Assembly (NCBI GenBank): GCA_963565915.1
Contig: OY751491.1
Location: 1,426,001 to 1,490,000, forward strand
Source: Entoloma clypeatum
Taxonomy: Eukaryota > Basidiomycota > Agaricomycetes > Agaricales > Entolomataceae
Direction of reading: 5' to 3'
Length of the DNA stretch: 64,000 nt
A model generated the notes under the pieces. That model saw only the letters and a list, made by a program, of their open reading frames with translations, was not told where the DNA came from and made no database searches. A program made the translations under genes and the position numbers. Positions 12,786 to 34,440 of the stretch are shown here, in pieces. Positions within the stretch are counted from its first letter, which is position 1, and each line of letters starts with the position of its first letter.

Positions 12786-12964
12786 CGCTCCTCGTGCCCA
12801 ACAGTCACCCCTCCCCCCCAACGGCCACCCCTCATGCCCAATGTCTGCCTCTCGCATCCAACGACTGCCCCTCACATCCAACGACTGCTCCTCATGTCCA
12901 ACGACTGCCCCTCGTCCCAACGACTGCCCCTCGCCCCCAACGGCCTCCCCTCATGTCCAACGAC
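12786..12964 (+). repeat. Free-standing minisatellite, left of G1a
   Basis: About eight units of the CCCAACGACTGCCCCTCA type. The array is interrupted at 12964 by G1a and resumes at 17852, so the pre-insertion array was about 700 bp long. Confidence 0.8.
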
Positions 12965-13353
12965 TGTTATGGACTTACCGGTTTGTATGTTACGCACTTT
13001 TCCCTTGCATTGTACCTTCGTTATTTCTTTGAGTCATCGGACCTCTTATTCATTTACCTTTACTCTACCATTCTCCTTTAGTATACTTTGCTCCCGCGCT
13101 GACTCGCACTCCGCAGTAGGGATTACTCAGTCCGCAGTCGTCTGACTCACTTCGCACTGCCTTTCCGCAGTTACTGACTCATCCGCACTGCCTTCCGCAG
13201 CTACTGACTCACTCGCTACCGCTCCTAGCCAGTACTATATAAACCCCATGTACCATAGCTACATTCCTTAGATTTAGCAATCACTTTGCTCTTCGCCTTT
13301 CCACTTTCCTGCATACTCTGCCCGAACCTTGGAACGGTTTGTTAAGCATAACA
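12965..13353 (+). repeat. G1a 5' LTR
   Basis: 389 bp, TGTTA...TAACA. It contains four GACTC(A/G)C(T/A) CCGCA blocks (13095-13215), TATATAAA at 13236-13243 and the probable transcript start at AGATTTAGCAA (13270), 34 bp downstream of the TATA box. Confidence 0.93.
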
Positions 13354-13366
13354 AGTTGCTAAATCT
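13270..13366 (+). promoter_or_regulatory. Self-priming pair: R start and primer binding site
   Basis: AGATTTAGCAA at 13270-13280, at the expected transcript 5' end, is the exact reverse complement of TTGCTAAATCT at 13356-13366, two bases after the LTR. Tf1/sushi-type retrotransposons prime reverse transcription by folding the 5' end of their own mRNA onto a primer binding site next to the LTR, using an 11-nt match. No tRNA 3'-end complement (TGG...) is visible here. I infer self-priming. Confidence 0.7.
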
Positions 13367-13413
13367 CATTAGGTTCGCCCAGAGCGAAGAGAGCAACTAC
13401 CAGACGAGTCAAG

Positions 13414-14142
13414 ATGTCGCGCTTCTTTGAAGACTTTACCAGTAACCCATTCAGCACACCAGAAGCCCGACAGGAGGAGCTAAGTCCTCGAGACAGTATC
13501 GATTTTACACTCATCCAGCAGTACATCGAATCGGAGATCCATCGCATCCTACAGCAGGTGCTTGACGAAGAACTAGACAACGACGAGCATCGCCCCCACG
13601 GCGAGATAGCAGAGAGCATCCATCTTGCTCGGCAACACCAGATCGTGCGTTACAACGCCCGACAGAACAAACTCGAAAGCTTTCACGTTCAAGAAGGACC
13701 TCAGACAGGTCGGATCACAGAGATCAGAGAGTTTATCGGTGTCCAGACAACCGTTATCAGAAGATTGATTAGGACGGTCACATTGAGACGTCCCAGAGCC
13801 ACATCATCACGTCTTACTCGAAGCAGCAGATCTACGCCCACTTCACCACCGAAGAACAACAGACCGAGTACAACCGCTGGGCACGAAACGAGAGACTTGA
13901 CCCCTTCTCGAGACCAACAGACGCGCAGGAACAGAGATTCCTTAGAGATTTACAGAGGAAATACTCTGAACGTTTTGCCACCGATTCCGCCGACGAGTCC
14001 CCTGACAAATTTACTTTTGACTCTGCGCAGTCAGATATCGAACAGATGCCTAGAACAGAGACTCATTTTCAATCCTTACCTGTATCCCGAACCCCATCTT
14101 CATCCCAACAACCCGACTCCTCTTCTCCTCCGCAGACTCTAA
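13414..14142 (+). CDS. gag: G1a first ORF (gag N-terminal ORF)
   Basis: The 242-codon ORF begins MSRFFEDFTSNPF 60 bp after the LTR and ends at TAA two bases before the ATG of the next ORF. Its first ~115 residues look protein-like (IQQYIESEIHRILQQVLDEE, a likely amphipathic or coiled-coil segment). The last half is Arg/Ser/Pro-rich and may be an out-of-frame reading: from about 13770 another frame reads much more like a protein (QIYAHFTTEEQQTEYNRW) and runs into the MAEAP gag. A TAG in that frame at about 13769 is present in all three copies, so the two-ORF layout is a family property or an ancestral lesion. Confidence 0.55.
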   Translation: MSRFFEDFTSNPFSTPEARQEELSPRDSIDFTLIQQYIESEIHRILQQVLDEELDNDEHRPHGEIAESIHLARQHQIVRYNARQNKLESFHVQEGPQTGRITEIREFIGVQTTVIRRLIRTVTLRRPRATSSRLTRSSRSTPTSPPKNNRPSTTAGHETRDLTPSRDQQTRRNRDSLEIYRGNTLNVLPPIPPTSPLTNLLLTLRSQISNRCLEQRLIFNPYLYPEPHLHPNNPTPLLLRRL

Positions 14143-14144
14143 AC

Positions 14145-15011
14145 ATGGCAGAAGCTCCGGCTGTACAAACAATGGATACATCCAAGATCATCAAGGATCC
14201 TGGGATGTTCAAGGACAGATACACCTTTGACGAGTGGTGGAAAGCCACCAAATAATACATCAGGTTCCAAAAGAGCCTCACAGACGATCAGAAGATTCTT
14301 GCGGTGCTATCCCGCATGATGGAAGGGTCCGGCAGACACTGGGCCAGTAACAAGTTAGACGCTCTTGCCGTTGACAACGAGAACATCACCTGGCTAGGTT
14401 TTTCCGATGATATCGCCACACGATTCTCCATCGCCAACAAGTCGGTCACTGCCAAAGCGAGACTCGAAGTCCTGAAACAAGAGAAACGCACTGTTGATGA
14501 ATTCTTGTATGAATTTGAAGAACTCTTGAAACTGTCAAACCTTGGCGAAGAAACTGGGAAATACATCCTAGAGAAAAACTTCAACCGCAGAATCTCTGAA
14601 CAAGTGGCTAGCGATGGCAAGACGTACACCGATTACGCAAAGGAGATCCGAAACAAAGGACGACAGATGGAAGGACACGCACTGGTCATCCAAGGTGGCA
14701 GCGACATGTGCACCGGATTGGGTACCACTTATGGTGGTCAGGGCAAGGCCATGGAGATTGACAAAGCAGGAGTAGCCCGTTGCTACAACTGTCAACGCTT
14801 CGGTCATCTGGCTAAAGACTGTAGCGCTCCAAAGAAGAAAGATGGTCGCAAGTGTTTCAACTGTGACCAAGAAGGCCATATCGCGCGCAACTGCCGCAAG
14901 CCGAAGAAGAACTCCAGAAGGATTAGGAAGGTGTCCGAGGAAGATGCCGAGAATGATGAAACCACAATCTTAGAAGCCGACGAGAAGGATTTTCCCGAAG
15001 GGTCCGATTAA
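14145..15011 (+). pseudogene. gag: G1a gag with two zinc knuckles, one nonsense codon
   Basis: The gag starts MAEAPAVQTMDTS and carries a retrotransposon gag domain (FDEWWKATK, then GSGRHWASNKL, FLYEFEELLKL) and two CCHC knuckles, CYNCQRFGHLAKDC and CFNCDQEGHIARNC, which bind RNA during packaging. A TAA at 14253-14255 interrupts it where G1b reads TTA (Leu). The same TAA is present in the fragment at 30022-31123. The end reads KDFPEGSD before TAA at 15009-15011. Confidence 0.85.
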
Positions 15012-16937
15012 ACGACGCTAAGTCGCGACCCTTATCTATTAAACGGACTTGCTTGCCTTGTATGACTGCAGACAATGGCACCCCATCGCGTTCTTGTCGC
15101 GGACCATGTCCGCGGCCGAACAGAATTACGAGATATACGACCAGGAACTTCTGGCAGTCGTGGAAGCATTGAAAGATTGGAGACACTATCTGCTCGAAGC
15201 CAGGGAACGCTTTGAAATCTTGACCGATCACAAGAACCTGGAATATTTCCGTCGTCCTCAGGACCTGAATCAACGACAGCGACGCTGGAAAATGAAATTA
15301 CAAGACTATGACTTCAAATTATGGCATGTGCCCAGCAAGACCAATGCGAAAGCGGACATCCTGTCACGCTTACCCTGGTATGAAGCGGAACTTGAACCAC
15401 AGGACAGTGACCAAATGCTCAAGGAGGGACTATTCTTGAAACGGTTGGAATCAGAAGATGTGGTACAAATGGAGATGTTCACGGAGGAACAATTCTTTGA
15501 AGGGGGTGAAACATCTGATTCCATCAAAATTGGAAACATCACGACCATCGAAAATCCGTGGATTGCACGCATCAAGGGTTCAAACCGCATGGAGACAGAA
15601 GTAGCCCAGGGTCTAAAGAAGAATCCTCATTGGTATCAACAGGAAAACGGCATCACATATGCAGGCGAACGAGTCTATGTCCCGCCAGATCCACAACTAC
15701 GACAAGAGTTGATGTTTGAAGCGCATGACTCACCAGTGGCTGGACACCCAGGACAGTACTGAACGCATGAACTCCTCACTCGCACGTACTGGTGGCCTAC
15801 CATCTTGCATGATGTGAAGAAGTACGTGAAGGGTTGCGACACTTGTCAACGCAACAAGATTAACCGACAAAAGCGACATGCTCCGCTACATCCCCATGCA
15901 GCACCAAGTCACCCATGGGAAGACATAGGAATCGACGTCGTGGGACCGATACAGAATCTGATGGAAAAAACGCAATTCTGGTCATCACGGATAGACATTC
16001 AAAGATGCTTCACCTCATTCCGACAACCGTGGAACTATCGGCTGAAGGATTAGCCAAGATCTATCGGGATCAGATATGGAAGCTTCATGGGATCCCCAAG
16101 AAGATCATCAGCGATAGGGGACCGCAGTTCACCGCAAAGTTCATGGAGATACTCTGCCGCATGCTAGGGATCAAAAGGAACCTGTCCACTGCATACCACC
16201 CACAGACTGACGGACAGGCCGAGCGATCGCATCAGGAGACGGAAGTGTTCTTATGAAACTTTGTCAACCATCTACAGGATGATTGGGCTGAATGGATCGC
16301 AATTGCAGAGTTCCAGTACAATGACAAAGAACATCAGGCAACGAAGCACACCCCATTCTACCTCAACTACGGTTTACATCCGTGGAAGGGAGAACTCATG
16401 TTAGAAGATACCAATCCGGCTGCCAACGACTTCTTGAAAAAACTCAAACAGGCACAAGAAGAAGCCAATGCTGCGCTGAAACAAGCACAGGATCAGATGA
16501 AGAAGACAGTTGACACACGGCGAAGTCCGTCTTGGGACTACCACATCGGAGACAAGGTGTGGCTGGAAGGGACTAACATCAGGACTGATCGTCCCTCAAA
16601 GAAACTTGATGCACTCCGACATGGACCATTTAAAGTTCTGGAGAAGAAAGGGGCTAGCGCGTATCTTCTTGACCTTCCGAAGACTTGGAAGATGATTCAT
16701 CCGGTGTTCAATGAGACCCTGTTGTCACCATACGAAACCCCGAAGTATGCCATCCAGAAGAGGAAATCAGCTCCAGACCCGGTCATCGTCGAAGGGCGGG
16801 AAGAGTAGATCCAGTATCTCGTCCAATGGGAAGGGTATGGTCCAGAAGAGAACACGTGGGAACCTCGGACTAACATCCAGAACGCTCAAAACTTAATCCA
16901 TGATTTCCATCGGCAAAACCCGTCAAGTCCACGATAA
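15012..16937 (+). pseudogene. pol: G1a pol remnant: RNase H, integrase, chromodomain
   Basis: Only 50 bases after gag the sequence jumps into RNase H (TMSAAEQNYEIYDQELLAVVEALKDWR is split by no frame change). Compared with G1b, protease and reverse transcriptase are gone; the junction TGCAGACAATGGCACC shares GACAA with both deletion ends. The integrase zinc part (HPGQY, CDTCQRNK) and core (GIDVVGP, SDRGPQF, AERSHQE) are broken by TGA at 15760, a frameshift near 15955 and TGA at 16254. 16398-16808 holds the C-terminal integrase part (RHGPFKVLEKKG), and the chromodomain ([18 protein letters not shown]) has lost about 38 bases at its start. Confidence 0.88.
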
Positions 16938-17059
16938 AAGACAACCGTTGGAATCAGCAACAGCATCGACCTCATCAGTCAAAAACCCACTGAGTTCTCC
17001 GCTCCGTCTTCAATATAGCTACTCCATTCTTCCTCTATCTCTCCAACATCCTCCGCACC

Positions 17060-17428
17060 ATGTCCACCGCCACCGTCACCACCACATCCACTGAAACCAA
17101 CCCCGCCATCACTGCCCTCATGGGTGAAGCCCTCTCCATGAGAGACCAGATCCACGCGCTAGAAGCCTCACTCGCCAACATCCTGCATCGACAGATGCAC
17201 ATCCGCCTCCATTCTTTATCCGACCTCCCCGTCGCACCAACCCCCGAAGAAAAACAAATCCTCGGGAACTACACCCATACGCTGGTCATTGAAAACCGGC
17301 GCATCCGACTAGCCGTCCGGAGTCTCGAGCTCGCCGTCGCCATCAACGAAGAGCTAATAGACGATTGGAGCCTCAAGGAGAATGGCTCCTGGCCAAACAA
17401 CGATGATGCCGGAGGATGGGGACAATGA
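17060..17428 (+). CDS. G1a ORF3, conserved small protein downstream of pol
   Basis: An uninterrupted 122-codon ORF between the end of pol and the polypurine tract. No family recognised. The centre reads ALSMRDQIHALEASLANI and HIRLHSLSDLPVAPT, then NYTHTLVIENRRIRLAVRSL, helical and likely coiled-coil. G1b has a colinear ORF (57898-57530) and a third copy remains at 10949-11158. Substitutions are mostly conservative (EASLANI/ETSIADI; VENRRLRL/IENRRIRL), so the reading frame seems to have been kept by selection in the family. It has its own ATG about 120 bp after pol; how it is translated is unknown. It shows no signal peptide or membrane segment, so an env role is unlikely. Confidence 0.75.
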   Translation: MSTATVTTTSTETNPAITALMGEALSMRDQIHALEASLANILHRQMHIRLHSLSDLPVAPTPEEKQILGNYTHTLVIENRRIRLAVRSLELAVAINEELIDDWSLKENGSWPNNDDAGGWGQ

Positions 17429-17462
17429 CTCTGTGAGGACACAGAGCTTGAGGAGGGGAACA

Positions 17463-17851
17463 TGTTACGGACTTACCGGTTTGTATGTTACGCACTTTTC
17501 CCTTGCATTGTACCTTCATTATTTCTTTGGCTCATCGGACTGCTTATTCATTTACCTTTACTCTACCATTCTCCTTTAGTATACTTTGCTCCCGCACTGA
17601 CTCGCACTCCGCAGTAGGGATTACTCAGTCCGCAGTCGTCTGACTCACTTCGCACTGCCTTTCCGCAGTTACTGACTCATCCGCACTGCCTTCCGCAGCT
17701 ACTGACTCACTCGCTACCGCTCCTAGCCAGTACTATATAAACCCCATGTACCATAGCTATATTCCTTAGATTTAGCAATCACTTTGCTCTTCGCCTTTCC
17801 ACTTTCCTGCATACTCTGCCCGAACCTTGGAACGGTTTGTTAAGCATAACA
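17463..17851 (+). repeat. G1a 3' LTR
   Basis: 389 bp, TGTTACGG...CATAACA, colinear with the 5' LTR including TATATAAA (17734-17741) and AGATTTAGCAA. The polypurine tract GAGGAGGGGAACA adjoins it. Confidence 0.93.
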
Positions 17852-18372
17852 ATGACCCCCCTCGTGTTCAATGACTGTCCCTTGGGCCAAATGGCCACCC
17901 CTTGTTCCCAACAGCCACCCCTCAATTCCAATGGCCTCCCCTTGTTCCCAATGGCCTCCCCTTGTTCCCAATGGCCTCCCCTTGTTCCCAATGGCCTCCC
18001 CTCGTGCCCAATGACTGCCCTTCATGTCTGTCCCTCAGGCCCAACAACTGCCCCTCCTGCCCAATGTCCGCCTCTCACATCCAATGACTGCCCATCGTGC
18101 CCAACAACCATCCCTTGCCCCCAACGATCACCGGCCTCCCCTCATGTCCAACGACCGCTCTTGTGTTCAACAACCATCCCTCCTGCCCAATGGCTGTCCC
18201 TCACATCCAATGACTGCCCCATGCCCCCAACAGTTACCCCTCACCCCCAACGGCCTCCCCTCGTGTCCAACAACCGCCCCTCGTATTCAATGACTGTCCC
18301 TCAGGCCAAATGGCCGCCCCTCGCCCCTAACGACTGCCCCCTGCCCCCTACGGCTGTCCCTCGCAAACAACG
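17852..18372 (+). repeat. Free-standing minisatellite, right of G1a
   Basis: About 26 units of ~19-21 bp, including four consecutive near-perfect copies of CCCCTTGTTCCCAATGGCCT at 17938-18000. It continues the array cut by G1a at 12964. The open frames across it are composition artefacts. Confidence 0.85.
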
Positions 18373-19021
18373 AGTGGGTGATGACTGGGCATTAGTGGGC
18401 CCCAACTTTCACCTTCGCAAAATATCAATTTTAGCACTTGCAAAAGTTTATGAGAAATGACCCCTTTCATAGGCACAAAAGTGTTCGTGAAATATCTCCT
18501 TTTGGGATGCACTTCCCTGATGCCAAAATTAAACTATTGCAATGTTTACTCTTTCTGCCAAAAATATTACTTGTCTGTGAGAAAAGATAAAGTATGGCAA
18601 GCCTGAAAGGGTTTTTAAAGTTGCTCAACAAAGCCCAACTTTTACAAAGAATTTGGTGAACAAGAAAGTAAGAATTTTGAAACAGCAAAACTAAACAAAA
18701 AAGGATTTTTTTGACAACATCATTCTCCACCAACTTTCTCTGGCAAGAATGATTAATATTTGGATCATTGAATCTTTTTGTTCCTCAAGTATTACAGTTG
18801 ATGAGAAATGCCTCGATAATGTCAACATTTTGCCATGTATTTCACATCTGTCAAATATTTTTATTCTTCACCTCCAAAGTCTCCTCTACAAAATATTATT
18901 CTGCAGACCCTTTATCAATATCATTTACAGAGGCTAAATTTTGAATCCTGTGCTGTGTCAGCAAGAATAATGTACCATTTCACTCAATTCGTTGGGCCTG
19001 TGACATGTGACACGGTGTGGT
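18373..19021. other. Non-coding interval left of the KDZ element
   Basis: AT-rich with no credible ORF. 18868-18956 resembles 46393-46478: both carry CCAAAGTCT, ACAAAAT, ACCCTTT, ATCATTT(A/G)CAGAGGC and end near CTGTG/CTTGTG, about three quarters identical by eye. This is a shared old repeat. Confidence 0.5.
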
Positions 19022-19029
19022 GAAATTTT

Positions 19030-20732
19030 CACCTAGTGTACCCTAACTAACAGCCTAATTAGGCTGGTCCCACAGGATGTTTGGTCCCAGCCTAATTAGG
19101 CTTGATATCATCAAATCCCCAACACCAGCGTTAAATCACCCCTCAAAGTAACAAAAAGACTCTGAATACAAGTTCCCTCCACCTATTTGGGAAGGCCATG
19201 CACTGACTGCGTTCTCAGCCATATCGGCTATTACCGCCCCGCCTCCTCCCACGTCCCACGCCCCCTCAGTGCCAATTTAGGAAGGCCATGCGCTGACAAC
19301 GCTCGGCTATTGCCATCCTGTCTCTCTCCACCTCCAACGACCTTCGCTCCCTCCGCAGTGCTCCTCACTGCCATCAACAGCAACGACGGCTACGATGGTT
19401 ACCGGATAGTACCACCTCACTGCCACCCTCCTTGCACAGTGCCCCGCGCCGCCGTCAACAGCAATGATGGCCTTTGAATAGCACCCACCTCGCCGTTGCC
19501 CTGTGCCACCGCCAACGGCACCGATGGCTGTCGGATGACTCCACCTCATTGCCCTCCCCATTCGTCCTCCCTGCACAATGCTCCTCATCACCATCAACAG
19601 CAACGATGGCTGTCGGATTCTGAGTATCACCTCACTGCCTTCTCGGTATTGAAGTCCTACGCCTTATCAACAATGTTGGAGACACAGCTGACCCGCTCTG
19701 CCTTCTCTCCCCTCCGTCCCTTCATCCCTCCCATTCTTGCTCATCACTGGCAGCATTGGTGCTCAAAACGCTCACACATTTTTGTTGGATCAGATAATAC
19801 TCGTTGTCAACAGCGATGACGCCGCTCTGCCTTCTATTACCCTCGCTCATTGTGTCCTCATTCTACACCAGTGGTGTCGGCGCTCGCGGCGCTCGTGATG
19901 CTCATGCATTTTTGTTGGTTGAACCTTGTCAACAGGCGACGACATACCCCCACACTGCCTCTTCTTGGAGCTTCAAACATAACATTCACTGTGCTTCGTT
20001 TGGGCGGTGCGTTTGGTGCACGATTGCAGGGTGCCCACCACTTATTCGTACGTCCGTCGTCTCTACCATGTTTCCCGTCCCTCCTAATCAATCCCATTCA
20101 TCAGCTGCGTCGGTGTTTGGCAAAATGATTGTGTTGAGATTATCGCCAATGATCAGGGTAATAGGACAACCCCTTCTTACGTCTCCTTCTCTGAAAATGA
20201 GCACCTAATCGGCGATGCCACGAAGAACCAAGTGGCCATGAACCCCCACAACACGTAGGTTGTCCTTGATTCTCCTGCAATCATGTTTAATGTCACCCAT
20301 CCAGCGTTTTCGATGCCAAGTGTCTCATTGGTCGCAAGTTCAATGACGCGGAGGTGCAGTCTGATCTCAAGCACTTCTCTTTCACCGTGTTCGACAAGGA
20401 AGAAAAACCTCACATTCAGGTTGAGTATCATGGCGAGCAGAAAGAATTCGTGAGTTTGATTACTACACCGACTCTTAAGTAGTATTTAACATTTTGACAT
20501 AGTCCCCGGAAGAAATTGCCGAGTCATACGTGCTCGTGACGCTCATGCGTTTTTGATTAATTGAACCTTCTCAGCAGGCGACGACGTACCTCCTTGCTGC
20601 TCTACCTCCTCTCTCCTCTCACGTCCTCACTCTGCGCCATCTGCTATGGATTTTTTCCCAATGGTCCACCTACCACCTCGCATCTTAATGACTTGCCGAC
20701 TTCCTCCGACAACCATGTATGTCAGCTCCTAA
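19030..20732 (+). repeat. KDZ element left terminal inverted repeat
   Basis: 1,703 bp. The outer 75 bp hold two palindromes, CAGCCTAATTAGGCTG near 19052 and CAGCCTAATTAGGCTT near 19089, probable transposase sites. 19190-19300 holds a repeated GGAAGGCCATGC block, and 19370-19620 holds four imperfect copies of a CAACAGCAACGATGG unit spaced about 60-80 bp. An Hsp70 gene fragment lies at 20105-20540, between two similar blocks (near 19900 and 20540) containing TGAACCTT and CAGGCGACGAC. Confidence 0.9.
20105..20540 (+). pseudogene. Hsp70 (SSA-type) fragment captured in left KDZ arm
   Basis: Three exon pieces read as the start of the Hsp70 ATPase domain: CVGVWQND, then [55 protein letters not shown] and SPEEI. 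Two introns with GT-AG ends separate them (20255-20304, 50 nt; 20450-20502, 53 nt), and both splice in frame. The acceptor side of a third intron (CATCAG) precedes 20105. There is no start codon, catalytic first strand or remainder of the gene, so it is a genomic capture, not a retrocopy. No stop lies within about 110 codons. It cannot make a working chaperone. Confidence 0.88.
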
Positions 20733-20978
20733 CGCCGGTGGCATCGCTCGCAACATTGATATATTTCTCAATGGCCCACCAACTTCCGACCACCTCGCCC
20801 GTTATCTAAACTCCATTGACATGAGAGCATCTTGAACTTTGTGGGGTATGTATCCTTCTGTCTATCCTCTCCCTTTTCTCATACCTCTACCAGTGCCAAT
20901 GCTGCCTTCCTTACTCACGAACTGCTGTCTAGTCCGGTCGCTAGCCACAAACCTAAACAGGTTTTGAAATCTGTAAGC

Positions 20979-22584
20979 TAAGGTATGACACGGGTACGGG
21001 TAACACCGTGACAATTTGGTCACGGGTGTGTTCGGGTACGGGTTCGAGTTTGTCCTACCCTTACTCACGGGTATATGGGTGTTGTACATACTATCTAATG
21101 GTTACATATCATAACTGAGCATTAATTGAAATATATTCTATTTGAATTTACAATCGACCGTCGAATTGTTGCTTATCAGGGCCGTGAGAAAATTGCCACC
21201 AATCGTGCTGGCATCCGAGCAAGTCACAGCTTCTAGCTCTACGGCCCCCATTGGCCCTCATGGGGTCATCCGATCTTGTTGAAGCTGAAGAAAAAAAACA
21301 ATCTATCGAGATCTGGCTTCACTATTTAAAAGTGTGTCGATTCCCTTCGCTTTTTTTCACCTTCCTGATGCCCCAGTCTTGGAAAACACAGTCTTCGGCC
21401 AAATCTTCACGCTCATCCCTCCAGTCTGCGGTCTCGACATCCTCTCTATCTAAGGCTGTCAGATCCAGTGCCAAAGCGGTCGGGCGCGGCGTCAAACGTA
21501 TCAAGAAAGGTGCCAGTTCAATCGCTCGTCCCCTCAAGCGGGCGAAGCATGCGCTTTCGAATGTCTCTTCCCCAGTCATGAGCGATGAAGGCAGCGACCC
21601 CACAGCCGGTGGAGATGAAGACAGCGTGGATGATGGGCCAGATGTTATCGACATTGATTCGGGTGAGGAGACCGACGAGCTTGAGAAAGAACTTGGTGAG
21701 CACGAATTCTTTTCTTTTCTTCCAGTTGATATCTTACTCATTCATCCCTCAGCTGCGGCGAAGAAAACCTGGAGGTCTGCTGTATATTCCTTCTTCAAAC
21801 CTGAAGTCACCATCGAGGTACATGATGGTCGCGTCGCCCACTTCTTCGCGTGTTCCGCCAAGAAATGCAAGACATCAGCAAAAGGTATTCGACGTTATCA
21901 AGACAAAGCCGACAAGTCGTCAACTGCTAACCTCCGGAACCATGCCGTGCGCTGCTTCGGCGAGGATGCTGTTAAGACAGCCATGAAGGGGGAGTCGAGT
22001 GTCGACCGGAGCGGCAACATCTTCAATACCTTCACCCGCCAAGGAAAACAGCCAGCCACCTACTCCCACCGTGCTCACTCAACCCCCGAGTTCCGGTAAT
22101 TATGTTTGCTTTTGATACATTCCTCCGAACTCACTCCGCCCATCAGTGCCCACATTGCCAAATGGGTGGCCGAAAGCAATCGCCCCGCGCACATCGTCTC
22201 TGCTGTTGAACGAGTATTCTCGCAAGGCCGGCATCTTCTCCCATTCACTCGCAGCCGCCTCTCACCTTCCTCAATTCGAGCCTTTCTCTGCTTGGGGTCA
22301 TGGGCACGGTGTGGTCTTGTAGTATTTGATGATGTAGTAGCTGCTGTGTCTGCGAAGAGCAGATAAGGACTTATATTTCGTAGTGCCATTTTTTTTACCT
22401 AGTAGCTGTCTCCTGTGCCAAATGAATGCGAAACCCACGGGTGCATATGCATACCCGTGGTTTTCGCGGTGTACCCGCCATTTCTATGGGTGTACCCGCA
22501 CCCCTACCCTTATGGGTACGGTGTTTGCGGGTACGGGTACGGGTTCAGGAAAAAAAACCCGAGGTGTACCCGTGTCATACCTTA
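20979..22584 (+). mobile_element. Nested hAT transposon, internally deleted, with exact TSD
   Basis: 1,606 bp bounded by TAAGGTATGACACGGGTAC inverted repeats and by CTGTAAGC at 20971-20978 and 22585-22592 (perfect 8-bp duplication). Both subterminal regions are packed with GGGTACGGGT-type motifs. It encodes one spliced protein (21368-22366). It is inserted in the KDZ interior, left of the transposase. Confidence 0.93.
21368..22366 (+). CDS. hAT-derived protein with BED finger and dimerisation tail, no catalytic core
   Basis: Exons 21368-21695, 21753-22095 and 22147-22366 (introns 57 and 51 nt, GT-AG) join in frame to 296 codons with no internal stop. The N-terminus is basic and Ser-rich, followed by an acidic stretch (VIDIDSGEETDELEKE), then a BED-type zinc finger with HFFACSAKKCKTS and LRNHAVRCF (C, C, H, C). 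The end is the hAT dimerisation region: AVERVFSQGRHLL and RLSPSSIRAFLCLGSW. The RNase-H-like DDE core of several hundred residues is missing, yet the frame is kept across the deletion (around AESNRPAHIV). It could bind the termini and oligomerise with a full transposase without cutting, that is, act as a repressor; this role is inferred. Confidence 0.85.
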
Positions 22585-22988
22585 CTGTAAGCTGCCGCAC
22601 TATTACTGTTGCCATCAGAACTCAACGGAATCTCCACAGATACCATGTTGGCATTGAAAGTATAAGGCTGTTCATGCACCCTCCACATGTCCTCTCCTTT
22701 TGCCGGATAATTTGCTAGCAAGTGTCGGTAGTGCACTCCTCCCCTGGGACTTGCTGGGACTTGCCCTACTCCCCTCTCGGCTCTTGCTAACAAGGTACGA
22801 GCTTTACCATGTAACCTCTACCCTGAGATTTATATGCCTACCAAAATTAGATTGTTTTGACACTGAGCGAAACACCGCCAATAGCCGAAACCTATTCCGC
22901 CCTCTCCAAACCTTATCCAGTGAATGTGTTGTCTCAGCTGCTCGATAGCCACCCTCCTGCGCTTTTCTAGCCTTCCACCTCCACGGCC

Positions 22989-25900
22989 ATGGACCACCAC
23001 AGTGGCAAGAGAATAAAATTCAGAACACTCTCAAAGAAAGCCATTCGACATACCTATGATGGCTCACAATGCCAGTCCCAAGTCCTCAGAGCCAGCAAAC
23101 AGTTGGAACGGAAGGCTGCTCATACTCAATGGTGTCGCGCCAAACTTCAAGGTAAGTATTGCTTTTGTGCGAAGATGCACAGCTGATGCCTCTCACGTCT
23201 CCTACAGCATATTCGCAAGAGGAACGCAATGCTGTAGAACAGATGGACCTCGACACTGGCTATACAAATGATGATGTTGTGGCCATTATTAACCACCCGC
23301 CACCAGGTGAAGAAGGGTTTGACCTCAGCCATGAAGGTGGGGAGTATGAGGTTTTCGATGGTCTCGTCGAAGACATGGCCCAGGCTACTGGCTAGTAAGC
23401 ATTCATTTTCCTCTCCTTCTTTTTTTGCTAACATTTCAACTAGCCGGCGCCTGGACACCCGATCTCGAACAAACTGTGTCGAACTACAAACGGCCTATTG
23501 GGCTTTGCAAATGGAGAAGCTTGTTCAAACATACCTTGCGTATCGGAAGCACAACTCCAGTGATGGTTTATCCAAAGCATCACAGCCATCTGATGATAGT
23601 CCTCAAACCCCGTTTCTTGTAGAAGTTCTGGACAATTACTGTAGCTATCTTTTTTTTCCAGTCAATTACAAATATGAACGACTACACAGCCCAATCACAT
23701 CTCAAGTTTCATCCACAACACGACGAGAGCTTTCTCAATGAGACACTAATCTGCCACGGATATCTCGGCTGTGCCCCTTTGCAACCAACGCTTGCAATAT
23801 CAATTCGCAGCCTTGAAGCATACCACCAATCCCATTGAACCTGTCCTCGATTCAGCATAGAGGCACAATGCAAGACATTATGTCATATGAACAATGTATG
23901 TCTTCTACATATCTGTTATACAAAGCTAATAGTAACATTATCCAAGGTTCCCTATCGTCCCAGTTTGCGGATTCAATTTTCCATTGCATTTGATGCATAT
24001 CTCGAAATTTGCCAGCATGTCGACTGCAAAATCAACCTTGCCCTTGGCTTTGACACACCACAATCTCGGATCCTTCGGTCTTGTCCCGCCTGTTTCTACA
24101 AGCTCAAAGGAGAGGTCGATCTCGAGTTCTCATGTTTGCTTCTTATTGATGGGAATAATTCCTTGAAACGGCTTGGGCCCGTTGTTCGGAACTGCACTGA
24201 GCGTCCCGATTCACGGACCCTAGTTTCAGATCGCTGGTTAAGTGCTGAAGAAGTCGATAAATTCAAAGATGAGGTTAAATCATGCTCGGTGGGTTGATAA
24301 AATAATTTGTTGAATATAATTTCATTGCTCATATGTTTTAGGATGGAAAAGGTGCCGATGATATTGATGTGGACAGTGATGATTGGGAAGATGTTTCCAA
24401 TTTTCAGCCTGGTTCAGTGAAATGTGCTGACCAGTGGCAAAATGCTGGTCCAGAGGAACATAAGAAGATGTTTTCCCTGTTTGATGAATCAGAACTCTTT
24501 GTTGCCTCCTGTCATCATAGGGTTGTCCTCACAGCATGTGATATGATCAAAAGTGGAGAATTGTAAGTCCGTTTATCTCAGTGCAATTGTTGGATCATTA
24601 ACTATAAGGTGCGATTCAGACAGAAATATCCTTTGGCGATTGTCAATCGACTTATCAACGTTCTTGGGCGCAAGATTGGTTGCGCATACGACATCGGCTG
24701 CGACTTTGCCAAAACCCTTGATGGTTCCAGCCTCAGGGATTATGCAAAGGCCAATGAGTTTCATATGATGGTTGGCGCATTCCATGGTCATGCCCATAAC
24801 TGTCTATGCCAACTTAAATGGCATCCTACATACATCAAAGGAACTGGAAACACAGAGGGAGAGGGTTGCGAACATGTATTTTCATCTTCAAACGACCTTG
24901 CTCGGGCCTCTCGACATGCAAACCGTTTCCATCAGCACCAAATGATTGAGGAACACTTCAAGTTTTGGGACAATGACAAGTATGTGAATCTCAGTGCGTA
25001 CCACCCTTTCAATTCATTTCAATAGACTCATTTCGTGCAGGCCAATTTATCAGTAACCATTATTCTGCCACTGTAAATGCCATTCACACCCTCGAATCCA
25101 AACTTGGCATTCTACAGTGAGAACTCACAATCACACCCGAAGACTTCAGGGCCTATATAGATCAGGAGAGAACATATCTTGAAGGGCTAACGAAGCCATC
25201 ACCGATAGCTTCTCAGAAAACTCAATATGTTCAGGCACTTAACGAACTTGCCCGATGCAGGTCAGTGCAGATTCCAAAAATAATGCCGATAAATAATGCC
25301 AATTCATGAATTAGGACGGAATGGGAATCGGCTCGCAGTGCCGCCGTTGCAATTTGCCAGACCACACGAGCAAACAATCTAAATGCCTTGATGAACAAAA
25401 CATGCCACCAGGTGGACACCGCCTACGCCAAACTGCAGAATGCCAAACAATATGTCGGGACATTTGAAATTGAACTTGACATTCCCGAATGCTGGACGCT
25501 GTCAAATCAAGAATATAAGGACTTTTATCAAGAAACCGTTCTCACCAGTTATTCAAAAGCTCTCAACAAACTCAAACATCTTGTTGTCATGCGGCTTTTT
25601 GAGTTGGCAAAAATGAGCACATCTGGAACTGGTACGTGAACCGATCCCACACCCAGTGCCACTGCCAAGCCCAAACCCCAATAGGATATAAGCTTCGTCG
25701 CCAAATCAGCAAAGCCCTTCCGCGGCGATCAGAGGCGATCAGGAGCACTCTTAATCGGTACAATACCCAGGCAGCTTGGCTCAATCCTCCCCGTCCATCC
25801 CTTTCCTGGAAGGAAATCGTTGAATATAGCTTCATTGGAGAATTTGATCTCTTACGCCATTCTAGGGAAGACATTCACTCTGAACCCTGGACCCACCCCT

Positions 25901-26349
25901 CATGTCGTGAGGCCACTGTCAAATTCCTCAAACTCTGTTGAGCACGGGAGGAGTTGGTGAGATTGAATATTGAAATATGCCGTCTTCGAACATGGATCCA
26001 CAATGAAACGAAGCATATGGCTACAGTCATTGTGAGCCTTTCGGCATCAGATCCCCTGCTATCTTCAGAATCACAGCATCAATGGGTGCTTCGTACAGCA
26101 GTGAACAAGGTTCATCTCATGTGACTCAATGCTATTGAACAGCGGCCTGGCTTCACGGGAATTCAAGGTGTAATTGGCTTGAGAAAAGCAGCCACTCACT
26201 CAGATCCCGATTCAGGCATAATCTCTGGAAGTATTGGGCGAGAAGGTTTGCAAGTTGATGCCAACACGCTTGATGATGAGATGGTGAATGATGATGTTGA
26301 TGAACAACTCTCAACGATTACAGATTTTATGCTTATGATTAAAGATTGA
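22989..26349 (+). pseudogene. KDZ (CxC1-type) transposase, ten exons, four in-frame TGA
   Basis: Exons: 22989-23151, 23208-23394, 23444-23618, 23662-23895, 23947-24288, 24342-24562, 24620-24993, 25041-25260, 25315-25631, 25685-26349. All nine introns are 43-57 nt with GT-AG ends and every junction keeps frame, giving 966 codons. Family landmarks in order: NCVELQTAYWALQM, ETLICHGYLGCAPL, TCPRFSIEAQCKTLCH, VPYRPS, RILRSCPACFYKL, LLIDGNNSLKR, YPLAIVNRLINV, GCAYDIGCDF, MVGAFHGHAHNCLCQLKW, EGCEHVFS, FELAKMSTSGTGYKLRRQ and SLSWKEIVEYSFIGEFDLLR. These match CxC1-type KDZ transposases of basidiomycetes (RNase-H-like DDE fold). The only lesions are TGA at 23836, 25118, 25939 and 26122; in at least two of these the family usually has Arg, so CGA-to-TGA is likely. 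It would act on the 1.7-kb arms. Confidence 0.9.
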
Positions 26350-27195
26350 ACCTCCATGTCCATTACCTACATAATAGTAATTTTGCCTTCTTCCAACGAT
26401 TGGGACAAGATTGAGTATTTTATTAATGGTCATATGGTGAGTGCTGATGAGTGGCTGACCGACCCATCGAGTGAAACGTGGTGCATTTCTTGACAGATGA
26501 ACTACATGAAGGGTGTTGTCTCAATCTGAAAGGTTAGGACATGTCTACTGGTAGTTTTAATGAAGTGGATGAAGATGTTGAATATTGGTTGAATATGTAG
26601 CGAAGGAAGATAAGATCAATAATCTAAAGTTGTAGCCTTGTCGAATTTTCCACTGCAATTGATCTGCTTGTCATACATCGCAACAATTCAACCACTATGC
26701 ACTGTCAGAAACCTCGGAAGGATGTTCTTCAAGCCATAAGTTATAGCCTATTAACAGTCATCGATCGGTATCCATCTAATAATTGATGACTTCGGACTTT
26801 ATGCAGTACGAGAAGAAAGTCAACAATTCAACGTACACATTGGACAGGTGACACAAGTCTTCACAAACTTAATCTTTTCGAATCATTATCAACTTATACT
26901 CCTTGTTACAGTCTTTTAATCAATAAGCCTGGTTGTCAATCTACACAATGATTGAGCAACTTCAGATTTAACCCGTTGGCAACCCGTTGATAGCATCGTG
27001 TCGGGCGGGCGACCTCGGTCTTCACAGATCTCAACTTCAAAGTAAGTATTATTAACTTATGATCCTCTCTGCTTTCAATCTGATGACCAAGTTGACAATC
27101 TACACAACACTGCAGTGGGGAGAAATTTGGACTGTTGCAAGATCAACAACTTTGTTTACTTAGGTAAACAAACATCTTGCATTCGAACCGCCATC
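26350..27195. other. Spacer between KDZ transposase and the tail-anchored gene
   Basis: No ORF of note. Short similar blocks recur, for example TTGTCAATCTACACAA near 26933 and TTGACAATCTACACAA near 27091. It should contain the transposase 3' end and the promoter of the next gene. Confidence 0.4.
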
Positions 27196-28591
27196 ATGGC
27201 TTCTTCCCCAGCTTCCTATAACCCGGCAGGGATCGCTTCACTAGCTTCCGCATTCAAGAGCGTCTCCGATTTGACACCAGAACAGAGACGCGCTGCAGCT
27301 TGTGCAATTCTTCATACCTCAAAATGCTATGAAAACCCAAACAATACCTGCCCCAAGGACGGCGGTCTTGATCAAATGTACATCAAGTTGCATGGACGTG
27401 GGAATTTGGAAAAGGTAGAATCCAGAGAGATTGAACATGTTCAGAATGAGACACTACGGGACGTGTTAGACGCGGTGCATATACTTTTTGAGGAAGTTAC
27501 TTTCTCACCAATCAATGAGTTCTAGGTCTCTACTTTTGAACGTACAAATGGAGGCATCACACTTCTTCTCCATTGTCCAGGCTTCAAGCAACCAAGGCCT
27601 TCTGCTGAACTTGCCTGTGAACAAATCACTGTTGAAGCCTATGTCTCACCTCGCGAATTGAATGCTGGCGGCTACCAGCTTACCGAGGACATTGTGTTCA
27701 TAATCCAAGATTTTGGAAGCAAGATAGCTCTTCCCCATGTTCTTCGCTTCCAGTCTCGCTGTGAAGTTGATGGCGTCACTCCACCTCATGCATCGAGTAT
27801 GTTTACACCCTCCCTGAACTTTGCCTGAATCCTCACATTGCTTGACAGAACCAGGAGACCAGATCAGAATTAATAGTCTGCACCGCCTCCCTCCTGCAGA
27901 ACGAACTGGATATATTCTTTGCCGCTGCCGCCCTGATGGTACTCTCGCTCAAGATATCGTGGCTACGAAGGGGCTCTCATTTGCTCGGAGGACGACACCA
28001 CCCAAGGCACCCATTAAGGTTACAGCTATCAATTTGGATCCCTCATATGATCCCGGCAGCAGCTGGTCAAGTGAAGCAGAACATGTCACAGCCCAAAATG
28101 ATGTACCCACCCCTGCTGTGGCTGAACCAGTTGCCACAAGTACGTCTCTTTATTTGAACCCTGCATAACTTACTGCTGACTATGTTGATATAGCCAAATT
28201 TGCTCCAAGGAAGAGTACGATCAATGGCTTTGGCGGTGCTATCATTAGTATTGGCCCTCATACTGACGAGATGCTTCGGCGTTTCAATTTAAAGGATGCC
28301 ATCATTCCCCACCTCCGCGTACTCACTCAGTCTGTCCAAAGTAGTGATTGGGTGCCAACACTGCGAAGTCCGCAGTGGGGCTTTACGTACGAGGAGGCTG
28401 TGAACATTGCCAATGCTATTGAAGCTGACATCAAAGGTAGCCGCTTTGAAGTGGTTAATGTAAGTTCTAAATTTCTGTATCAACATTGATAGACTGCTGA
28501 TTATTGTCTCCAGGCTCAGCCATCCTCGAAAATACTGCTTGTTCTCCTCTCTGTGATTCTAACTCTTGTCCTTGCCATTTATATCCTTTGA
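27196..28591 (+). CDS. Accessory gene A of the KDZ element: tail-anchored protein of unknown function
   Basis: Not recognised. Exons 27196-27796, 27849-28139, 28194-28459 and 28514-28591, with introns of 52, 54 and 54 nt, join without frame loss to 412 codons. The start MASSPASYNP is chosen because protein-like sequence begins there. The N-terminal part holds LTPEQRRAAACAILHTSKCY and a DVLDAVHILFEEVTF helix; the middle reads TLLLHCPGFKQP and IVFIIQDFGSKIALPHVLRF, beta-rich; the C-terminal exon is basic, then SKILLVLLSVILTLVLAIYI and stop, a typical single tail-anchor helix. One in-frame TAG at 27523-27525 (compatible with CAG) is the only lesion seen. It lies same-strand, 847 bp after the transposase, so it looks like cargo or an accessory gene; membrane targeting is inferred from the tail. 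Confidence 0.65.
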
Positions 28592-29468
28592 TCCATTGCC
28601 CTTTTTATTTGCTGACTTGTTTCTTATTGAATTTAGTGACTGTGTAGCTGTTTTTTTTAGTTGCTTAGTTGCCCTACTTGTTTGTCGTCTTCCAGACTTC
28701 AATACCAAATTGCCTGATTTGAATCTAGATTTTTGCAATGGCTCCAACGGGATGGCCCAGGATTCTCAATTTTCCTAAATGGCTATAACGGAATGGATCC
28801 TTGATTATATATAATCAGTCCTGAAGGTTTGTCTGCAATGGCAACTAAACTATATCCTGCATCTAACAAACAGCCGCTTTTGTAGGCTCGGCTGAATGTT
28901 TTGAATTAGCATTCTTTTTCATGGCGTTGATCGAATTGAATCTGATCTTTCACAAGCGGCCTGAATTTTATTGACATTCTGTTCCTTCAATTTATTACTT
29001 GGTGCACAGTGCGCGCTGTTCCCTTGTGGTTCCAAAAACCCACTAACTTGCTAGGGCTTGTGTTGATGATTGGTGAACCTGCACCATGAATCTTGATTGA
29101 CTGGTGCACCTAATTTCATGGTGCAATTGATCTACTTGGTGTGCCAACCTCTTGTTGTTCCGAAAACTTACTAACTTAATTGCGAACCTGCAGAGGGGGA
29201 TTTTATATTCTTACAATTTGCTTGGTGCATTTAATTCATCGGCATGATCGATCTACTGGGTGCGCCATTCTCTTCCTGTTCCAAGACTCCCACAACCAAT
29301 GCTGATGATCGGTACCATTGCACCATGTCTAAAAAGAAATTTAGATTATATCACGATCTCTAGTATGTTTTGCTGTCTGAATAAAAATTATTTCATGGGT
29401 TGCACTTCGTTCTTGGGTCCCCTGTGTTGAACCACCCCCTCCCCCCTCCAAGTCGTCAACACCATTAT
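28592..29468. repeat. Spacer with degenerate ~120-136-bp direct repeats
   Basis: Three related blocks start near 28993 (ATTACTTGGTGCACAGTG), 29129 (GATCTACTTGGTGTGCCA) and 29249 (GATCTACTGGGTGCGCCA), each followed by a TGTTCC or GGTTCC and AA(C/G)ACTCCC-like stretch and an intervening TGCACC. Spacings are about 136 and 120 bp. No coding potential is seen. Confidence 0.5.
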
Positions 29469-31681
29469 ATGATGAAGACACGCTTCTACAAGCCGGCTAG
29501 AGTGTCCTCTCGAACCACTCAAGGCCGACGGGTTCGCAGCTATCCAAAACTCACCAAGGCTAGTGCCGCAGCTCTTCGGGAACGCCGCCAACAATCTGCG
29601 CAAAATTACCATAATGCCATGAAAGATGCCTGGTCAAAAGTCAACGATATTACGGCAGACTTGGCCTCTTCGCATGACAAGAGTGTCCGTCACATCCAGC
29701 TGGACCTTCACATGGAAAGTCAACTCACCCGAAAACGCCACATAAGAACAAATCCTTGGAATGCATTTGTTTGGAAAATGTCTCACAAGAAAGAGAATCA
29801 TGGCATGACACTCGCTGATGTCAATTGTAATGTGTTCTAACATGTTTATTCATGCAGGTGCATCTGGGAAAGGCATTTTACCAGCCCTCATTACCGAGCA
29901 CTGGGAGACTTATGAGACGCTGACAAGCGGGGAGCGAAATGAATTAATCCGTACATTTGAAGAACACAAGGCAAAAACAGCCACGGCAAAGCAAATTTCG
30001 GTAAAGTTCCAAATGAATGATGTTGCCAGATGACCGAAGCATTGACAGTTGTAGCAACGGGCTACTCCTGCTTTGTTGATCTCCATGGCCTTGCCCTGAC
30101 CCCCATAAGTGGTACCCAATCTGGTGCACATGTCGCCGCCACCTCGAATGACCAGTGTGTGTCCTTCCATCTGTTGTTTTTTGTTTCGGATCTCCTTTGC
30201 GTAATTGGTGTACGTCTTGCCATCACTAGCCACTTGTTCAGAGATTCTGCGGTTGATGTTCTTCTCTAGGATGTATTTCCCAGTTTCTTCACCAAGGTTT
30301 GACAGCTTCAAGATTCTTCGAATTCATCCAAGAATTCGTCAACGGTGCGTTTCTCTTGTTTCAGGACTTCAAGTCTTGCTTTGGCAGCAACCGACTTGTT
30401 GGCGATGGAGAATCGTGTGGCGATGTCATCGGAAAAACCTAGCCAGGTGATGTTCTCATTGTTGACAGCAAGAGCGTCTAACTTGTTACTGGCCCAGTGT
30501 CTGCCGGACCCTTCCATCATACAGGATAGCACCGCAAGAATCTTCTGATCATCTGTGAGGCTCTTTTGGAACCTGATGTATTATTTGGTGGCTTTCCACC
30601 ACTCGTCAAAGGTGTATCTGTCCTTGAACATCCCAGGATCCTTGATGATCTTGGATGTATCCATTGTCTGTACTGCTGGGGCTTCTGCCATGTCTAGAGT
30701 CTGCGGAGGAGAAGAGGGGTCGGGTTGTTGGGATGAAGATGGGGTTCGGGATACAGGTAAGGATTGAAAATGAGTCTCTGTTCTAGGCATCTGTTCGATA
30801 TCTGACTGCGCAGAGTCAAAAGTAAATTTGTCAGGGGACTCGTCGGCGGAATCGGTGGCAAAACGTTCAGAGTATTTCCTCTGTAAATCTCTAAGGAATC
30901 TCTGTTCCTGCGCGTCTGTTGGTCTCAAGAAGGGGTCAAGTCTCTCGTTTCGTGCCCAGCGGTTGTACTCGGTCTGTTGTTCTTCGGTGGTGAAGTGGGC
31001 GTAGATCTGCTGCTTCGAGTAAGACGTGATGATGTGGCTCTGGGATGTCTCGATGTGAGCGTCCTAATCAATCTTCTGATAACGGTTGTCTGGACACCGA
31101 TAAACTCTCTGATCTCTGTGATCAGCATAAAATCACCAGCAACTTGTCTCAGCTATATGAGGGGATATACAATTGGAGATTGTGAATGAGCTCAGTGAGT
31201 AAAATCAATTGTGTTTCGTGTCAATACATTGTTGATACTATCTACCATTAAAGAACTTATTACGGAAGATGAGAATGCTCGCATGGAATGGAAGCTTTAT
31301 TGGCAGAAGATCGTACAGCGCTACAAGGTTGTCATTGAAGGATGGCCTGACACTATACCCTTCAAAAACCTCAGTCAATCGTCAAGTGCTCTTCCAGAGC
31401 TCAAGAATCTTCTCCAGCAGTGGCGTACTGGCGAAACTCACTGGAAGAAGCTCACAGATGACGAGTTCTCTGCTCTCGAAGACAAGCACAGGAGACAAAT
31501 TGAGGGTGGCGAAATCACAGCTCCTGTCCCCCGTCGTCGTCGATCTGATCACAGAAAGAAACGGAACCGAAGACAGGATCCTGAGACCTCCAAAGAGAAC
31601 CAGGAACCACGCCGAGCATCCAAGAAGTACAAATGTTCCCACCCCTCACAAATTCTGTCTCCCTTCATGTTAATAGGATGA
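29469..31681 (+). pseudogene. Accessory gene B of the KDZ element: HMG-box-like protein, disrupted
   Basis: The 5' part (29469-30021) reads MMKTRFYKPARVSSRTTQGR, then basic and helical sequence, an HMG-box-like NPWNAFVWKMSHKK motif near 29752, and ALITEHWETYETLTSGERNE. A very short candidate intron (29827-29857, 31 nt) is needed to stay in frame there. A gypsy gag fragment (30022-31123) then replaces the middle. The 3' exon (about 31253-31681) reads YWQKIVQRYKVVIEGWPDTI and HWKKLTDDEFSALEDKHRRQ and ends in a lysine/arginine-rich tail. I recall proteins with the same EGWP(D) block and basic tail beside basidiomycete KDZ transposons, but could not check. A nuclear DNA-binding role is likely. 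Confidence 0.6.
30022..31123 (-). pseudogene. gag: G1-family gag fragment inside accessory gene B
   Basis: About 1.1 kb matching 13715-14825 of G1a in reverse, from within the first ORF to the first zinc knuckle. It has neither LTR nor target duplication, so it did not arrive by integrase. GCCAG at the left junction is shared by both partners. It carries the same TAA after KATK as G1a (here at 30587-30589), so both descend from an already defective source. The MDTSKIIKDPGMF and FDEEFL-type segments are readable on the minus strand. Confidence 0.85.
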
Positions 31682-32058
31682 TGCTTTGTTGTTCTTTAGT
31701 AACCATTATATGTTGCGTCCCGATGAATAGATATATGCAGGCAAATGAAACAACATGGCAATATACCGCAAATCACATCGGGAAAGTTGGTGAGGCGAGG
31801 GAGTAAGTCGGTGAAAGAAAATAGGTTTGTGAACGAAAGTGGGTCCGCGAAGGAATGTAGCAGCGAACAACATGGAGTCTAGCAGTAATAGAGCTGTAAG
31901 AAATAGGCAGAGGAGTCAGAATAATATGTACATACCCCACGATGAATATAGTGAAGAAGGAAAGTAGCAGAAAGGTGCAGTGAGGTGGAAGTAGGCAATT
32001 GGCAGGCCATCGGGAGGAAACCCATCATGGTTTTGAGCACCGGGTGCAGAGTGAGGCA
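31682..32058. other. KDZ interior right of accessory gene B
   Basis: No gene recognised. It holds GGTGAGGCGAGGGAGTAAG and related purine-rich repeats (31790-31860) and ends where the right arm begins. Confidence 0.4.
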
Positions 32059-33761
32059 TTAGGAGCTGACATACATGGTTGTCGGAGGAAGTCGGCAAGT
32101 CATTAAGATGCGAGGTGGTAGGTGGACCATTGGGAAAAAATCCATAGCAGATGGCGCAGAGTGAGGACGTGAGAGGAGAGAGGAGGTAGAGCAGCAAGGA
32201 GGTACGTCGTCGCCTGCTGAGAAGGTTCAATTAATCAAAAACGCATGAGCGTCACGAGCACGTATGACTCGGCAATTTCTTCCGGGGACTATGTCAAAAT
32301 GTTAAATACTACTTAAGAGTCGGTGTAGTAATCAAACTCACGAATTCTTTCTGCTCGCCATGATACTCAACCTGAATGTGAGGTTTTTCTTCCTTGTCGA
32401 ACACGGTGAAAGAGAAGTGCTTGAGATCAGACTGCACCTCCGCGTCATTGAACTTGCGACCAATGAGACACTTGGCATCGAAAACGCTGGATGGGTGACA
32501 TTAAACATGATTGCAGGAGAATCAAGGACAACCTACGTGTTGTGGGGGTTCATGGCCACTTGGTTCTTCGTGGCATCGCCGATTAGGTGCTCATTTTCAG
32601 AGAAGGAGACGTAAGAAGGGGTTGTCCTATTACCCTGATCATTGGCGATAATCTCAACACAATCATTTTGCCAAACACCGACGCAGCTGATGAATGGGAT
32701 TGATTAGGAGGGACGGGAAACATGGTAGAGACGACGGACGTACGAATAAGTGGTGGGCACCCTGCAATCGTGCACCAAACGCACCGCCCAAACGAAGCAC
32801 AGTGAATGTTATGTTTGAAGCTCCAAGAAGAGGCAGTGTGGGGGTATGTCGTCGCCTGTTGACAAGGTTCAACCAACAAAAATGCATGAGCATCACGAGC
32901 GCCGCGAGCGCCGACACCACTGGTGTAGAATGAGGACATGATGAGCAAGGGTAATAGAAGGCAGAGCGGCGTCATCGCTGTTGACAACGAGTATTATCTG
33001 ATCCAACGAAAATGTGTGAGCGTTTTGAGTGCCAATGCTGCCAGTGATGAGTGAGAATGGGAGGGATGAAGGGACGGAGGGGAGAGAAGGCAGAGCGGGT
33101 CAGCTGTGTCTCCAACATTGTTGATAAGGTGTAGGACTTCAATACCGAGAAGGCAGTGAGGTGATACTCAGAATCCGACAGCCATCGTTGCTGTTGATGG
33201 TGATGAGGAGCATTGTGCAGGGAGGACGAATGGGGAGGGCAATGAGGTGGAGTCATCTGACAGCCATCGGCGCCGTTGGCGGTGGCACAAGGCAATGGCG
33301 AGGTGGGTGCTATTCAAAGGCCATCATTGCTGTTGACAGCGGCGCGGGGCACTGCGCAAGGAGGGTGGCAGTGAGGTGGTACTATCCGGTAACCATCGTA
33401 GCCGTCGTTGCTGTTGATGGCAGTGAGGAGCACTGCGGAGGGAGCGAAGGTCGTTGGAGGTGGAGAGAGACAGGATGGCAATAGCCGAGCGTTGTCAGCG
33501 CATGGCCTTCCTAAATTGGCACTGAGGGGGCGTGGGACGTGGGAGGAGGCGGGGCGGTAATAGCCGATATGGCCGAGAACGCAGTCAGTGCATGGCCTTC
33601 CCAAATAGGTGGAGGAAACTTGTATTCAGAGTCTTTTTGTTACTTTGAGGGGTGATTTAACGCTGGTGTTGGGGATTTGATGATATCAAGCCTAATTAGG
33701 CTGGGACCAAACACCCTGTGGGACCAGCCTAATTAGGCTGTTAGTTAGAGTACACTAGGTG
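32059..33761 (-). repeat. KDZ element right terminal inverted repeat
   Basis: Mirror image of 19030-20732, the same 1,703-bp length, with only scattered single-base differences, most of them C/T (for example CAGGATG versus CAGGGTG and GTTCCCTCC versus GTTTCCTCC). The coordinate sum 52791 maps one arm to the other exactly at the ends and at the Hsp70 fragment. Confidence 0.9.
32251..32686 (-). pseudogene. Hsp70 fragment captured in right KDZ arm
   Basis: Exact mirror of 20105-20540: exon pieces, two small introns and the same C-terminal break. The first exon base falls at 32686 as the arm arithmetic predicts. The capture therefore preceded arm duplication, or was spread by gene conversion between arms. 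Confidence 0.88.
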
Positions 33762-33769
33762 GAAATTTT

Positions 33770-34440
33770 GATTTCGTCGCGGTTGCAAATTTCTGTGAGG
33801 TCAACTCAAGTGACTGATTTTCGTCATTTTTGGTGCCATTTTTGGAAATCCTGTGTGCTGCATTTGTTGTCAGGCTCAGGGAAGCATGACAAACATGACA
33901 ATCCAGTGTTTCAAGAGCCCCATTATGTGTGACCAACAAATTGATTGAAATGGTACAGTACTGCACCTTAACATGAGCAATAAGTGCATGGTAGATCCCA
34001 ACCAAGGCTTTCTGGTGAGGGGGAGTTGAAAATTGTGTTTGAAACCTTCATTACAGCTTGGTCACACTTTGGTCTTGTTTAGATGAAGAAAATCATGAAA
34101 TCTCTCACCAGCTTTCCAGTTTTGAGAATATCTCTACTGGCTTCTGTAATGGGCTTGGTATGATAAATACCATGATATCTTCTCACTATAAGCAGTTGCT
34201 ATGTACAACAGAGAGAGTGGTAGACAAGCATTTCAAACACTAGTAACTTTCAAACTCCTGGTCACAAATGGTATTTTGGGCAAGATATCTGTTCTTTTCG
34301 CAGGCTCCTAAACCATCCCCTCAACACGGATGAACACATTTGTGATGATGTATTTTTTCAGAGCAGCAGGTTCTCACCTGGGGAAAAATCACAGATCTTA
34401 TCTGATTTCCCCATCTGGACCATGATCTAGTCAACAGCCG
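33770..34440. other. Non-coding flank right of the KDZ element
   Basis: No protein-like ORF and no match elsewhere in the window was seen. It begins in the second GAAATTTT and ends at the first recognisable ABC-transporter codons. Confidence 0.5.

Follow-up and report, generated by a model that had tools for sequence, protein, structure and literature searches.

KDZ (Kyakuja-Dileera-Zisupton) transposons generate 8-bp target duplications, have been described with short terminal repeats, and carry cysteine-cluster domains next to the KDZ domain. Fragments of host genes are found inside Pack-type elements, which have no transposase gene of their own; long inverted arms are a feature of Foldback elements and of MITEs with long terminal inverted repeats (TIRs), and Starship giant elements possess a tyrosine recombinase as captain gene. 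Here we analyzed a window of 64,000 nt (C10:1426001-1490000; C-numbers denote contigs, plain coordinates refer to the window) from the 60-Mb genome of Entoloma clypeatum, which is assembled in 20 contigs. At positions 19030-33761 the window contains a KDZ element whose history we reconstruct, with a probability of roughly 0.8, as a single insertion into a repeat, capture of an Hsp70 gene fragment in one arm, homogenization of the inner parts of the arms, and later decay. Its features are the following:

19022..19029, no strand: target duplication, left copy GAAATTTT, present as a single copy at two paralogous empty sites
19030..20732, plus strand: left arm (terminal inverted repeat), 1,703 nt, from alignment to the right arm
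19052..19102, plus strand: hairpin close to the end, formed by two pairing AGCCTAATTAGGCT palindromes, from folding
19347..19640, plus strand: outer-arm subterminal repeats, four copies of about 45 nt each, 60-84% identical to the reference copy
19891..19951, plus strand: first copy of the ~62-nt direct repeat (85% identity between its two copies) that encloses the Hsp70 fragment
20036..20517, plus strand: left-arm copy of the intron-bearing Hsp70 gene fragment, 84% identical to C5:3214593-3215067
20979..22584, plus strand: nested hAT-type element, 1,606 bp, with perfect 17-bp ends and an 8-bp duplication
22990..26348, plus strand: broken KDZ transposase gene of several exons, from PF18758 and reading frames, limits set by eye
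27196..28591, plus strand: gene B, five exons by inspection, 394 aa open, hydrophobic tail
29469..31681, plus strand: gene C, interrupted and without the middle part that its homologues have
30025..31123, minus strand: internal gag-like piece of an LTR-type retrotransposon, 1,099 bp, 96% identical to window 13713-14812
32059..33761, minus strand: right arm (terminal inverted repeat), 1,703 nt, from alignment to the left arm
32274..32755, minus strand: right-arm copy of the Hsp70 gene fragment, with no difference from the left-arm copy in the alignment
33762..33769, no strand: target duplication, right copy GAAATTTT, from the same empty-site comparison

The length of this single insertion is 14,732 bp. 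Alignment of 19030-20732 with the reverse complement of 32059-33761 yielded 1,684 identical positions out of 1,703, with 19 mismatches and no gaps, and the arms are thus of equal length and in mirror orientation, as the preliminary description had stated. The inner edge of the homology lies at arm position 1703. Past the outer ends, which GAAATTTT abuts directly on both sides, six of the eight duplication positions still pair, because GAAATTTT is nearly its own reverse complement, and then the arm homology stops. A junction search, in which 40 of 122 candidates were scored, detected joined flanks with one GAAATTTT that match across the junction at C9:190403-190877 (95%), C5:316675-317122 (91%) and C14:265374-265827 (83%). 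Base-by-base alignment of the C9 and C5 sites revealed one uninterrupted GAAATTTT each and the absence of the element; the C14 site was judged from its 83% match. Since the two aligned, paralogous empty sites carry a single GAAATTTT, the insertion site is a dispersed repeat, which the element entered in one piece. The empty sites, found as copies of the target repeat in the same genome, fix the exact ends and the perfect 8-bp duplication of the full element, both of which had been proposed correctly. The left flank itself (18630-18958) is a repeat of about 329 nt that occurs at many genomic places, in several cases as two copies that face each other at a distance of about 0.8 kb (C6:3312059 and C6:3312893, for example); it is probably a MITE with arms of about 328 nt, ending 71 nt from the KDZ insertion.

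The transposase domain expected in the interior was recovered well above threshold (PF18758, E 3.5e-44, 151.5 bits against a cut-off of 26.6). The gene that encodes it contains four in-frame stops (at about 23836, 25118, 25939 and 26122) at positions where its relatives read on, and it changes frame near 23640-23690, which may be an intron or a frameshift. With four in-frame stops this copy should make no full transposase, and any present mobility would probably depend on a transposase supplied in trans by another KDZ element. The term complete, used in the preliminary description, therefore applies to the element's ends, both of which are present, and not to its function. The Pfam scan, which covered typed exon pieces only, detected no cysteine-cluster domains beside the KDZ domain; none of the 17 typed pieces of the element matched a recombinase in Pfam, and there was no Rfam match at gathering score over 19000-33800.

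Part of the large size was acquired secondarily. The nested hAT-type element is flanked by the duplication CTGTAAGC (20971-20978 and 22585-22592), and its match to Dimer_Tnp_hAT (E 6.3e-4, 19.9 bits) falls just below the cut-off of 21.4; subtracting this element together with one copy of its duplication leaves a KDZ element of 13,118 bp. The retrotransposon piece at 30025-31123, for which no target duplication of its own was seen, interrupts gene C. About 2.7 kb of the size that had suggested a giant cargo element thus consist of the nested hAT element and the retrotransposon piece. Elsewhere in the window, direct repeats of 390 bp (12965-13354 and 17463-17852, 98% identical) bracket a source-like copy of the gag piece, and the region 12965-17852 is probably an LTR retrotransposon. 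Arrays of a 20-bp unit around CCCAACGGCC are located at 7476-7966, 9140-9421, 12286-12496, 12808-12966, 17879-18364 and 44691-44981.

KDZ domains are abundant in this genome, with at least 118 matches (116 of them over the cut-off), which we merged to 84 loci. The end motif CACCTAGTG occurs 22 times genome-wide with up to three mismatches, two occurrences being the window ends, and the reversed pattern used as a control gave none. Copies with the same ends, for which a search had been suggested, therefore exist: five pairs of these ends face each other, and four pairs have 8-bp duplications, namely GAAATTTT in the window and TGCCCACC, GGGGGGTG and CCTTTCAT at three of the four others. At the fifth pair (C14:1727075-1728707) a matching duplication is absent, and the remaining 12 motif matches are single ends whose partner was not found by the CACCTAGTG pattern. 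The TGCCCACC pair delimits an element of 10,830 bp (C5:2250468-2261297) with a KDZ gene inside and the same terminal motif; its arms extend over about 815 nt on the left side at 82% identity, with an insertion of 1.3 kb in the right arm, and have only the terminal ~75 nt in common with the window arms. The other three pairs delimit short elements of 1.6-1.8 kb, whose arms run uninterrupted for 181, 333 and 241 nt, and the closest ends elsewhere match over the terminal 114 nt at 89% (C12:2685251). Long arms thus recur in the group, and those of the window, at 1.7 kb, are the longest among the arms read; to this extent they are exceptional, as previously suggested, although relatives reach about 0.8 kb and part of the length is a captured Hsp70 fragment. 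KDZ copies with different ends, which would have spoken against these termini, were not seen among the ends read so far: both ends of one other element, which are the same as in the window, and one end of a second (C2:270066, the right end of which was not found in the 19.8 kb examined), out of 84 loci. Two further observations concern these relatives. Pairs of KDZ genes with equal scores and opposite orientation are located at C9:3444446/C9:3468326 (24 kb) and C2:3160279/C2:3196380 (36 kb), as if in large inverted duplications. The loci L052 (C5:826478) and L062 (C14:4033872) have the same ends, and their 20-nt flanks differ at a single position, a hint that both may have inserted at one and the same point of another repeat.

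The two arms have not diverged evenly. All 19 mismatches are located within the outer 823 nt, and the inner 880 nt are identical between the arms. All mismatches are transitions, and 15 of the 19 are of the CpG type (three TG/CA double sites counted). In simulations of 200,000 draws each, a clean run of 880 nt arose once for 19 mismatches and 22 times for 16 independent events. The first ~75 nt of the arm contain the hairpin, with z-scores of -4.7 and -5.4 at two lengths. The Hsp70 fragment (arm positions 1007-1488) is located in the identical inner part and is bracketed by the direct repeats of about 62 nt, the second of which spans 20532-20593. It aligns over exons and introns to the host gene at C5:3214593-3215067, and two of its exon pieces match the Pfam family HSP70 (E 6.5e-18 and 3e-07); two weaker Hsp70 matches to the arm are present in the genome (74% and 72%). 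At 20 of the 41 CpGs of the aligned host stretch the arm reads TG or CA, and in the opposite direction this applies to 6 of 24 arm CpGs. Among 98 codons compared between arm and host we counted 19 silent differences and 12 residue changes, and neutral decay of the captured exons is likely despite the lack of in-frame stops. Both arms are identical across the fragment and have the CpG changes in common; this shared decay indicates a long divergence from the host gene before the inner arms became identical.

These observations are best explained by the following events. A transposon of the KDZ superfamily entered the dispersed repeat through an 8-bp staggered cut, for which the empty sites provide direct evidence, with ends composed of the CACCTAGTG terminus, the hairpin and the subterminal repeats that are probably recognized by the KDZ transposase. 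One arm would have gained the piece of the host Hsp70 gene as DNA, with its introns; the homology establishes the source, and the route is our reconstruction. The captured piece decayed, mainly by C-to-T changes at CpG, and the inner halves of the arms may later have been made identical, most simply by gene conversion or by arm-to-arm copying during break repair. The element has since decayed through the four stops in the transposase gene, the hAT insertion and the retrotransposon piece in gene C. We consider capture into one arm followed by arm-to-arm homogenization the likeliest course, in which the route and the homogenization are inferred. The absence of a duplication at C14:1727075-1728707, the missing right end at C2:270066 and the lack of in-frame stops in the captured exons count against this explanation. 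The homogenization step lacks an outgroup, and the same picture would result if the inner 880 nt had been duplicated recently in inverted orientation. Such a duplication, extending original arms of about 820 nt without any conversion of old arms, is a serious though less favored possibility. It would account for the contrast between no differences in the inner 880 nt and 19 in the outer 823, and the arms of about 815 nt in the C5 relative come near the length of the diverged outer part. However, the small terminal stretch shared with that relative means that the match in length may be due to chance, and no relative with a single-copy inner sequence was found: apart from Hsp70, the DNA search matched the inner arm to no other genomic place.

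Downstream of the transposase gene, genes B and C had been regarded as cargo, a view that found little support. Gene B matches no Pfam family at E <= 0.1 and no PDB sequence at E <= 1. The same Pfam threshold returned no family for the first part of gene C and only weak matches below the cut-off for the second, and between these two conserved parts about 0.4-0.5 kb present in the relatives L080 and L081 are missing from the window copy. Gene B follows a KDZ gene on the same strand within 10 kb at 4 of 8 B loci (spacing 2.0-2.5 kb) and gene C at 6 of 16 C loci (spacing 5.1-6.3 kb), counts that include the window copy and are lower bounds, the search for C having used only its second part; of the 8 B loci, 5 have C next after B in the same orientation. 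Among the KDZ loci of the group, the one around C9:1044220 carries both B and C, and the one around C14:845523 carries B. In a simple binomial estimate that excludes the window copy, the chance of such adjacency comes to roughly 1e-5 (gene B) and 5e-8 (gene C). An acquisition of both genes as passengers by the window element alone is therefore improbable: the lack of recognizable Pfam families would fit it, and so would the loci where the preceding 10 kb contain no same-strand KDZ match (4 of 8 for B, 10 of 16 for C), which may reflect decay or independence, but wherever a KDZ gene lies upstream, order and strand are constant and spacing is similar. The supposed cargo looks mostly like the clade's own set of genes, KDZ-B-C, and the recurrence of this order suggests that a transposase may not be all that such elements use. 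In the C5 element some frames resemble, as we take it by eye, the family of gene C; the comparison gave no significant match for genes B and C (best E 0.32). A search for a second DNA copy of the interior (26360-30024), which skipped very common words, returned only the interior itself.

A faster divergence of the outer arms through composition or local mutation, with no homogenization, is highly improbable. Mismatches that are exclusively transitions, most of them at CpG, are what local mutation might produce, but the inner arm is richer in CpG than the outer (49 versus 40) and would thus be expected to diverge at least as much, and it had earlier lost about half of the host CpGs (20 of 41). 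The simulation and the CpG counts likewise disfavor a uniform decay of the arms. Two independent, opposite insertions of a repeat, with GAAATTTT matching by chance, are scarcely credible even though short arm-only relatives exist in the genome, as the arms are of equal length without gaps and the empty sites read through the position of both ends with one GAAATTTT, which rules this out unless the sites represent precise excisions; the arms belong to the KDZ element. Judging from the genome assembly, an artifact of assembly is unlikely, since 19 sites distinguish the two arms and the flanking sequences have matches in repeats at other places.

The exact ends, together with relatives that have the same ends in the genome, provide defined termini for binding and excision tests, and the contrast between diverged outer and identical inner arms renders homogenization testable in sister strains. 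The presence of a host gene fragment in each terminal repeat would represent a clear case of gene capture by the KDZ superfamily. The novelty of the locus would lie chiefly in this Hsp70 fragment in both arms and in the different ages of the outer and inner parts of the arms. More speculatively, and with considerable doubt on our part, KDZ transposons could be capture devices of the Pack type, in which repair of breaks in an arm takes up host fragments and conversion between the arms places each of them in both, lengthening the terminal repeats; mirrored Hsp70 sequences could then feed dsRNA against the host gene.

Compared with known systems, the element agrees with KDZ transposons in its KDZ transposase domain, its 8-bp target duplication and terminal repeats common to the KDZ-bearing element at C5:2250468-2261297. 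It differs from them, which have been described with short repeats, by its 1.7-kb arms and the host gene fragment; the four stops set it apart from elements with an active transposase and leave its membership in the family unaffected. With Pack-MULEs and other Pack-type elements it shares an intron-bearing host gene fragment between its ends, here inside the terminal repeats, but it belongs to another superfamily and keeps a (broken) transposase gene. Long inverted arms also link it to Foldback elements and long-TIR MITEs, which its short relatives of 1.6-1.8 kb with arms of up to 333 nt recall as well, whereas the arms in the window flank an 11.3-kb interior with a transposase gene.
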